In this document: piece after piece, positions 4,650 to 59,293 of the stretch | Numbering within the stretch: the stretch's first letter is position 1 | How the letters are laid out: each line of letters begins with the position of its first letter | Source: Alligator mississippiensis | Lineage: Eukaryota > Chordata > Crocodylia > Alligatoridae | Assembly (NCBI RefSeq): GCF_030867095.1 | Contig: NC_081835.1 | Location: 19,724,501 to 19,788,500 of the forward strand | Length of the DNA: 64,000 nucleotides | Reading direction: 5' to 3' | The notes under the pieces: model-generated | Databases searched by the model: none | What the model was told of the DNA's origin: nothing | Seen by the model: only the letters and a program-made list of their open reading frames with translations | Program-made: the position numbers and the translations under genes

Positions 4650-5176
4650 CAGAGATGCTCAATGTCTGGCCTGGATGCCAAATCGAGCCTCAACATGTGT
4701 GGAGCCATGACATCCAGTCTGTGGGGCTCCCCACGAGTAGGGAAATGTGGCGGTGGGGGAACAGTGGCAATTAACACTGAACCCCCTCCCCTGTTGCCAA
4801 AATCCCAAGACTTGCAGCCAGATCAGAGCCAGGTCACACCCCTCCTTCTGCGGCTAAGTCAGAGCTGAAGCACACCGCATCTGTCCAGGCAGCCAGGCTG
4901 GGCCTGGGCCACAGCCCCTTCTCCCTGCGTGGCTGGATTAGGACTAGGTCATGCCTCTCCTCCCTGTGCGGCTGAACTGCATCCATACTAAGTCCCCTTC
5001 CCAGTGTGGCTGGCAGGGCTGGACTGTCCCCACCCTTCCCTCCACCCAGCCAAATGGGGCCCTGCTGTGCCCCTCTCCAAGCACCAGATGAGATCAGGAC
5101 CACTGGCCTGATCCAGCCCACAGAAGGACTGGGCACTGCCCATCCAACCCACCAGGCAAAAAATTGAACACCACTG
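4650..5176. mobile_element. Non-autonomous hAT-type DNA transposon
   Basis: The left end is CAGAGATGCTCAAT. The inverse complement of the right end is CAGTGGTGTTCAAT, giving a 14-bp imperfect terminal inverted repeat of hAT type. The 8-bp flanks CTCCAATG and CCCTAAAT match at only four positions, so the target duplication has decayed or is misplaced. No transposase frame is present. The interior is GC-rich and partly tandem. Confidence 0.65.
4815..5060. repeat. Degenerate internal tandem repeat of the hAT element
   Basis: Units of roughly 60 bp recur with drift. Recognisable anchors are CAGAGCCAGGTCACACCCCT, then GGACTAGGTCATGCCTCTCC, then CATACTAAGTCCCCTTCCC. They are separated by TGCGGCT, GTGCGGCTG and GTGTGGCTGG segments. 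Array expansion inside short DNA transposons is common. Confidence 0.5.
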
Positions 5177-43835: not shown

Positions 43836-44599
43836 GCTTTCCACTCAAGATACAAATCTCCCATTCGTGAGCCAAAAGGGAGACCCAGATTAGGAGGGTG
43901 TTTGCAGCCCGTGTCCTGAGGGAACCTGGCTACATTGGGGAGGGAGAGGCAGGCAGACAGAGACTGCATCTGAGGGAAGGGTGGCATTCACCCTTGTGTG
44001 GCCCTGCTAGGCCTGTGGCAGGGGTGGAGGAGATGCAGCTTACACTGCCCAGATCCAGGGCTGGTTTGGCCCCAGCCACAGGCTCAGGGAGACCCCAAAG
44101 CTGCTCTCTTTGTATGACCACTGAATAGTGAGGTTGTGTCTCCCCTAAGCCTGACCCATCTGAAACATCCACTGCACTGGAGGCTTTTGCAGGGGGCAGG
44201 GAGCTAGTACATATTGGTATCTCCAGGGCTGTGGGGGCTCACCACTTTGTGCTGCTGTGGCCTGTGTAGTCTTCTGAAGAGGAGATGGCATTGAGACCCC
44301 TCTCGGCTGGACTGAGCAGGGACTCTGGGGGTTCAGTCAGTGCCCTATGGGTGCCCAGGTCATTCAGATGTAACTTAGATACTTGCCAGTGTCTGCACAT
44401 GGAGCTTCTGGTCACTAGACAGCACAGCAGGGGTGGGCTCTGACACATGGGTCTATGTCCCTGTGAAGCTCAGGCTTTCCTATGGGTCTTGCATCTCCTG
44501 TTGAAGTGCCAGCCTGGGCACTAACAAACTGTCCAGGGGTTGGGGTGGCAGAGAGTCCTTCAGAGCATAGTGGAGGGGGCCTGAGGGCTCTGTATTGCC
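43836..44599. other. Unique sequence, no gene
   Basis: Nothing is recognised before the left target duplication of the LINE insertion. Confidence 0.4.
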
Positions 44600-44616
44600 C
44601 TGACCTGGAGCTCTTT
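44600..44616. repeat. Left 17-bp target-site duplication
   Basis: CTGACCTGGAGCTCTTT is identical to 45612-45628. The two copies bound the Tx1/L1-like insertion. The length fits target-primed reverse transcription. Confidence 0.92.
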
Positions 44617-44654
44617 TTTTTTTCACAAATATATATAATGCCAAATATATATTT

Positions 44655-44716
44655 GGGGGTCGGACTCGATGTTCTATTGAGGTCCCTTCTGACCCTAGCA
44701 TCTATGAATCTATGAA
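44655..44716 (+). mobile_element. Minimal CR1 3' end nested in the Tx1-like insert
   Basis: GGGGGTCGGACTCGATGTTC through CTTCTGACCCTAGCATCTAT and a GAATCTATGAA end. This is a CR1 terminus of only about 62 bp, opposite in orientation to its host element. It lies between the Tx1-like coding end and its A-tail, so it probably inserted after the Tx1-like copy. Alternatively the Tx1-like UTR itself carried it. Confidence 0.8.
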
Positions 44717-44892
44717 TAACTCCACTTCCAACACTCTGCCAAGTGGCCCCTGTGGCAGCTCAAAGCACGTGGCAGCTCGGCAGTTCAAAGCACACTAAAA
44801 ACCCATTACACAGTTCGCATGTTCACTGAATCGCACACCCGCGCACCCATCTCCATACCTGTACCCCCCACCCACTGCCTTCTTCAGAGGGT

Positions 44893-45400
44893 CTACTCCT
44901 GAATAAGTCTATGCCAGACCCCTCTCCACCAGATGAGGTCTGCCTTTGCTTTCCCGTTGTCCTCTTCTATCTTCCTGTAGTACCAGTATGTTTCTCTTAG
45001 TCCCATTTTAATATCGTCCTCAACTGTGGGGTCTGAGTGTCTGTTTATAAGCAAGTTCCTGGCTTTCCACAGGGCAGACCTGAAGCAGGATATGGCCTGG
45101 TGCCCATAGAGAACCGCTTCCCTGCTCAGGTTTCTGAAACCTGTCACCACCAGGAGTGCACGGACTTTCTTCCACACCTCTCTGGCATATGGGCAGTCCC
45201 AGAAGAGGTGGTCCATTGTTTCTGCCTGCCAGTAGCAGGTCTGTCTTGGGCAGTTTGGACCTCTCTGCCCTGTGCTGTTTTTCCATGCCCGCATGGGGAG
45301 TGCCTGGTGGGCTGCCTGCCAGGTCAGGTCTATTTGCAGAGCAGTTGCTGCAGCAGTGGCAAGTGCACACAACCTCCAACGGGAGCCCATGGACCATGGA
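44893..45400 (-). pseudogene. LINE ORF2 C-terminal region, sense part
   Basis: The minus-strand frame, ending in TAG at 44893-44895, reads LTWQAAHQALPMRAW, then CPRQTC, then MDHLFWDCPYAREVWKKV and later ALWKARNLLINRHSDPTVED. This is the order of the C-terminal tail of Tx1-clade LINE polyproteins. It has the LxWxxxHxxLPxR block, a Cys/His knuckle (C...C...H-x4-C) ending in CPxAxxVW, and the LWxARNLLxxRHxDxTVE block. In an intact element this follows the reverse transcriptase domain and binds nucleic acid. The first 25 or so residues, before LTW, do not look like the family and may be junction sequence. Confidence 0.8.
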
Positions 45401-45404
45401 TTCC

Positions 45405-45611
45405 CCATGGTTTTACAAGATCCTGAAGCACTTTCAAGAGAAATACAAATTGCATGGCACTACCCTAGCAACCCTGGTAAACCACCACAAGATATGGGAG
45501 GTGGTAAGGGCAAGAGACACCATGTCGTCCATAGACTTACTACCTGGCAACAGCTGCCAGGCCGTGTGGGAGCAAATCTTCTGCAAGGACCTACATAAGA
45601 AGCACAGAGCT
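45405..45611 (+). pseudogene. LINE ORF2 region, inverted 5' part
   Basis: The + strand reads PWFYKILKHFQEKYKLHGTT, then HHKIWEVVRARDTMSS and CQAVWEQIFCKDLHKKHRAL. This matches the Tx1-type region that precedes the LxWxxxHxxLPxR block (pattern FY..L..F...F, then .K..Y..LR, then W..I....L....KDL). It lies on the strand opposite to the C-terminal part, and its coding resemblance runs into the right target duplication. Confidence 0.7.
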
Positions 45612-45628
45612 CTGACCTGGAGCTCTTT
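45612..45628. repeat. Right 17-bp target-site duplication
   Basis: CTGACCTGGAGCTCTTT, an exact copy of 44600-44616. The first nine bases (CTGACCTGG) also occur inside the element (complement at 45319-45327), as microhomology would require. Confidence 0.92.

Positions 45629-59264: not shown

Positions 59265-59293
<29 letters not shown>
59265..59293. repeat. G29 homopolymer
   Basis: Twenty-nine consecutive G, exceptionally long for a vertebrate G run. The true length is uncertain because such runs are hard to sequence and assemble. Confidence 0.85.

Follow-up and report, generated by a model that had tools for sequence, protein, structure and literature searches.

Structure of the locus

The window, by which is meant the whole 64-kb stretch of DNA that was analysed, carries a 5'-truncated LINE copy of ~990 bp (44617-45608) that lies between two copies of a short direct repeat and consists of two parts in opposite orientation. 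The features delimited at this locus are listed below with their strand and, where comparison was used, its source.

44597..44616, no strand: target-site duplication copy 1, 20 bp, with the exact 17-mer inside it at 44600-44616
44617..44623, minus strand: remainder of a T-run (whole run 44614-44623), the A-tail of the LINE
44624..44654, minus strand: AT-rich 3'-terminal tail of the LINE, typical of the family (comparison with other copies)
44655..44715, plus strand: CR1-like 3'-end piece within the LINE tail, opposite in orientation to the LINE (matches to loci L022 and L015)
44717..45331, minus strand: 3' part of the LINE, comprising C-terminal coding sequence (zf-RVT) and 3' UTR; very probably the first-strand cDNA (genome copies, Pfam)
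45319..45330, minus strand: internal copy of the putative second-strand priming site, CCAGGTCAGGTC as the plus strand reads (sequence comparison)
45331..45332, no strand: inversion junction GGTCT^ATTTGCAG, with ~1 nt of homology (comparison with copies)
45332..45608, plus strand: inverted 5' part of the LINE, coding sense on the plus strand; very probably the second-strand cDNA, primed from the target (genome copies)
45609..45628, no strand: target-site duplication copy 2, with the putative internally priming 3' end at 45609 (20-bp repeat)

Three Ts of the T-run belong also to duplication copy 1, and many other copies of the element, compared by eye, have a T-run and then GCAAAAATATTT-like sequence, oriented alike; this run is the A-tail that the original prediction had placed on the minus strand. 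The CR1-like piece of ~60 bp matches L022 at 84% (positions 4970-5028, beside a reverse-transcriptase ORF) and L015 at 90%, and its name, CR1, is our assumption; it may have nested there later or have belonged to the inserted RNA. A minus-strand ORF at 44893-45459 gave a Pfam match to zf-RVT (E 1.6e-6), and no Pfam match was found for the plus-strand part. LINE C-terminal coding sequence on the minus strand, as first proposed, is thus supported by the zf-RVT match, and the preceding coding region on the plus strand is supported by genome copies, though not by Pfam. Approximately 38-39 bp that are present in loci L002, L003, and L005 are missing from the window copy at 45100-45102, and this gap of ~39 bp is probably a deletion. 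Scans of the whole window for tRNA genes and Rfam families returned no match in either case. A run of 29 Gs is located at 59265-59293.

Target-site duplication and flanking sequence

Both 44600-44616 and 45612-45628 read CTGACCTGGAGCTCTTT, a 17-mer that is not part of a longer exact match and occurs nowhere else within the window. When one mismatch was allowed, the repeat grew leftward to 20 bp, with GCCCTGACCTGGAGCTCTTT at 44597-44616 and GCTCTGACCTGGAGCTCTTT at 45609-45628. The exact 17-bp duplication reported earlier was therefore reproduced (17/17, or 19/20 over 20 bp), but the target-site duplication is better taken as 20 bp with one mismatch, a reading under which the two-base mismatch that the 17-bp version leaves beside the primer disappears. 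An automatic search for duplications covered 21 LINE copies and gave p values of at most 0.03 for five of them (L011, L012, L013, L017, and the window copy), though in L017 the signal comes from a simple repeat; the 16 copies without a signal may be old or poorly delimited. A paralogous empty site was sought in this genome, but neither flank had a paralogue among the matches.

Copies elsewhere in the genome

The window's own genome (2.35 Gb, with the window on contig C12) was searched for related copies; 40 of 1268 first-look candidates were scored, giving 70 matches. At 19 of 20 loci (L009-L028) the pieces up to ~45337 and from ~45333 were found adjoining each other on opposite strands, some of these matches being partial; the remaining locus, L015, had no match to the second piece. 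At L011 a single ORF of 235 amino acids runs across both parts. The plus and minus parts of the window copy thus map to adjacent, opposite-strand intervals in non-inverted copies, which indicates that the window copy is inverted from 45332 on.

For finer comparison, 26 copies were placed on L017 as reference, itself one of the 26. On this scale the inverted part of the window copy begins at 861 and the 3' part extends to 868, so that the two cDNA ends are adjacent or overlapping. Four of the 26 copies are 5'-inverted, namely the window copy, L002, L012, and L013, a count that leaves out short reversed pieces in L026 (28 bp) and L031 (46 bp) and a distant one in L021, and that may miss inversions hidden in L029-L032, which were covered over 1.7-2.0 kb only. 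This fraction is not a genome-wide rate, because the search that yielded the copies started from the window copy. L012 and L013 have breakpoints of their own and target-site duplications of their own (18 bp and 12 bp, with one mismatch each). Among 20 further copies (L033-L052) none was found with the inversion of the window copy; 18 of these could be judged fully, since the second piece was not matched in L039, nor the first in L041.

Family assignment

The clade evidence comes from the related copy L009, the window copy ending before the reverse transcriptase. The reverse-transcriptase piece of L009 matched RVT_1 in Pfam (1.1e-22), and in a comparison with solved structures its best named matches were LINE-1 ORF2p (~1e-27) and R2 (~1e-9). 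Since LINE-1 ORF2p is the nearest, this sequence evidence supports an L1-type reverse transcriptase and places the element in the L1 group of LINEs. The likeness of the window LINE to Tx1 is our presumption.

Priming homology and mechanism of insertion

The 3' end of the target strand reads CCAGGTCAGGGC, and the window continues from there with TCTGTGC. At the breakpoint, most non-inverted copies read CCAGTTCAGGTC-TCTGTGC, or nearly so, in the antisense orientation of the element, and the bases that follow the target 12-mer in the window continue as LINE sequence. The 3' 12-mer of the target agrees with the breakpoint site of the LINE at 11 of 12 positions in L012, 10 of 12 in L009, L022, and L019, 9 of 12 in L030, and fewer than 9 of 12 in L017. 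Only 13 of 200,000 random 12-mers from the window agreed with the majority priming site at 10 or more positions. Other spots within ~1.9 kb also reach at least 9 of 12 in all six copies, so that only the coincidence with the breakpoint counts as evidence; in four of the six (L009, L022, L012, and L019, not L030 or L017) no other spot scores higher than the breakpoint site. The first nine bases of the duplication, CTGACCTGG, do recur inside the element (45319-45327, minus strand), as had been noticed at the outset. Seven copies of this 9-mer lie in the window, where shuffling predicts 1.66, so that by itself it is weak evidence, its position at the breakpoint being what counts. The microhomology between target and element RNA that the original prediction invoked is accordingly present as a 12-mer match at the start of the inversion, of up to 11/12.

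The feature is very probably a 5'-inverted insertion made by twin priming during target-primed reverse transcription of an L1-group LINE, as originally proposed; the opposite-strand parts, the duplication, and the target homology at the start of the inversion all support this explanation. Briefly, the LINE endonuclease would nick one strand at GAGCTCTTT/G, and the 3' end at this first nick would prime on the A-tail of the RNA, giving a first cDNA of ~0.6-0.7 kb. A second nick 20 nt away would expose the 3' end CCAGGTCAGGGC, which could anneal inside the same RNA and prime a second cDNA of ~280 nt. The first cDNA would stop ~1 nt beyond the second-strand priming site, and joining of the two cDNA ends would leave the 5' inversion together with the 20-bp target duplication. 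Whereas structure and homologies can be read directly from the DNA, the order of strand events is inferred by analogy with the established twin-priming model.

Two observations stand against this explanation. The junction recurs in L002 to within ~3-5 nt, which a single event of this kind does not predict, and the duplication, with 0-1 differences, is cleaner than a divergence of 9-13% suggests, although the CpG-masked terminal branch is 0.073. With four of 26 copies 5'-inverted, and two of the other three carrying duplications of their own, the event is ordinary and L1-like. Twin-primed 5' inversion is a known accident of LINEs, and the window copy is a well supported but ordinary instance.

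Age of the insertion

Against a majority consensus, the 3' part of the window copy shows 56 differences in 595 positions, and the inverted part 36 in 275. Trees were based on 26 copies and on a set of 44, from which L041 (3' part missing) and L049 (a near-duplicate of L048) were omitted; the larger set was also analysed with CpG columns masked. The terminal branch of the window copy was 0.11 (26 copies), 0.13 (44 copies), and 0.073 (44 copies, CpG-masked), and the corresponding medians over the copies in the trees were 0.11, 0.12, and 0.069. A recent insertion, as the original prediction had read this copy, is ruled out by the divergence from the consensus and by a terminal branch of 0.11-0.13 substitutions per site, values like those of its relatives. 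The insertion is old in spite of its clean duplication.

The near-identical copies L048 and L049 of the LINE 3' part lie on contig C11 at ~64.4-64.6 Mb, and further LINE matches at C11:64369028 and C11:64606592 suggest a local duplication there.

Junction common to two copies

L002 (contig C7) matches the window copy across the inversion junction at 87% over 201 bp, and in a reciprocal search (40 candidates scored for each, of 176 and 213 first-look candidates) these were the only two copies with this junction. The junctions read GGTCT^ATTTGCAG in the window and CTCTG^CAGGG in L002, positions ~3-5 nt apart on both sides. The inverted part of L002 starts ~40 nt deeper in the element than that of the window copy, and the priming point and the flanks differ. 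No target-site duplication was found for L002 (p 0.36 against shuffles); its flank agrees with the LINE at the 5' end of L002 itself at 6 of 7 positions (by eye). The inverted part of L002 also contains an insert of ~270 bp (L002:2336-2607) with similar 8-mers at its edges, ATATCACC and ATGTCACC, and no match to this insert was found among the other loci compared.

This agreement points to a recurrent breakpoint or to the early spread of an inverted source. In the latter case an older inverted copy would have been transcribed and retrotransposed to give both the window copy and L002, which accounts for the agreement of the junctions to within ~3-5 nt, and the two would be expected as sisters. 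Instead, the window copy grouped with L009 (support 92/86 with 26 copies, 94/20 with 44) and L002 with L012 (94/87 and 95/88), although L020, L042, and L045 are closer to L002 than L012 is when CpG positions are masked. In all three data sets, none of 200 bootstrap trees joined the window copy and L002, and forcing them together cost 28-31 log-likelihood units, with p-AU values of 0.004 (26 copies), 0.037 (44 copies), and 0.075 (44 copies, CpG-masked). They have no rare transversion in common, against a mean of 0.18 per pair, whereas the window copy has two in common with L009 and two with L012. Tested alone, the inverted part is neutral on a joint origin (p-AU 0.50, log-likelihood lower by 0.10) and the 3' part gives p-AU 0.061; several arbitrary other pairs were likewise not rejected in such tests, so the single parts are of limited power. 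Nor does an inverted source predict that the target should match the breakpoint, and the 5' ends of the two copies differ. We consider descent from such a source improbable. Because the trees do not pair the two copies, independent inversion is favoured, though not proven.

A plain 5'-truncated insertion that was inverted later at the DNA level, for instance through the element's short inverted repeat TTYTGCAGG / CCTGCAAAA, is very improbable. Such repeats do lie near both breakpoints, and the junction is common to two copies, but the breakpoints are off the repeats, the first arm is missing at the left junction, and the target-element homology and the duplication are flush with the inverted end. 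For two unrelated repeats lying side by side between coincidental 17-mers, an outcome that the original prediction named as contrary to it, no supporting point was found, and this reading is refuted by the many copies in which both parts follow one another within a single element and by the presence of the exact 17-mer just twice in the window.

The chances are about even that twin priming in this LINE family has a preferred inversion breakpoint. The window copy and L002 would then have undergone separate inversions, at different target sites and from different internal priming points, with the two cDNAs ending and being joined within ~3-5 nt of the same place under the guidance of the element's RNA or cDNA structure. 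Peaks of inversion breakpoints reported for human L1 in PMC12016303 offer a precedent for such recurrence. An RNA stem linking both breakpoints is no more than a tentative idea as to the cause, the summed arm pairing exceeding 4 in just 6 of 26 folded copies. The copies with a breakpoint stem predicted by folding are L009, L010, L012, L036, L040, and L050. Inspection of the 5' ends of ordinary truncated copies, made without a statistic, revealed no preferred stop at either breakpoint.

Comparison with known elements

The element has an L1-group reverse transcriptase in common with LINEs of the Tx1 clade. PMC5753468 and PMC9004415 describe Tx1 LINEs from crocodilians and, as ancient fossils, from vertebrates. 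Some of the crocodilian elements are reported to be sequence-specific, whereas the 3' flanks of the copies compared here vary (by eye). In the open-licence literature twin priming is scarcely linked with Tx1, which is weak evidence of absence. With CR1 LINEs the window copy has in common the ~60-bp tail piece resembling a CR1 3' end; unlike CR1, the main element ends in an A-rich tail, and its reverse transcriptase best matches L1 ORF2p.

The closest parallel is human LINE-1, whose 5'-inverted insertions were reportedly attributed to twin priming by Ostertag and Kazazian in 2001. A 5' inversion is reported in ~31% of human- and chimpanzee-specific L1 insertions (PMC2912911, Kojima 2010), with homologies of 2-5 bp in ~70% of the inverted ones (PMC2912911). 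Target duplications of inverted L1 insertions measure 10-20 bp (PMC4245944), and the overlap of the human L1 cDNAs, where they overlap, has a median of 12 bp (PMC12016303). As far as the available text of these sources goes, the window copy resembles the human cases in its oppositely oriented cDNA segments, a duplication in or at the limit of the 10-20 bp range, adjacent breakpoints, A-tail, and target-element homology at the 5' junction. It differs in belonging to another LINE family in another vertebrate and in a priming homology that is longer and imperfect (up to 10-11 of 12, against 2-5 bp in ~70% of the human cases).

An L1-group LINE family of this vertebrate has thus very probably made 5' inversions as human L1 does. 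In the cell assays described in PMC4245944 almost all inversions came from human L1 acting in human cells, the exception being one zebrafish Nimb-2 insert in chicken cells, and natural cases elsewhere therefore bear on the question of host versus element dependence. The near-identical junction in L002, a further difference from the human LINE-1 cases, is the sole part of specialist interest and provides a test case for the placement of inversion breakpoints by the structure of the element.
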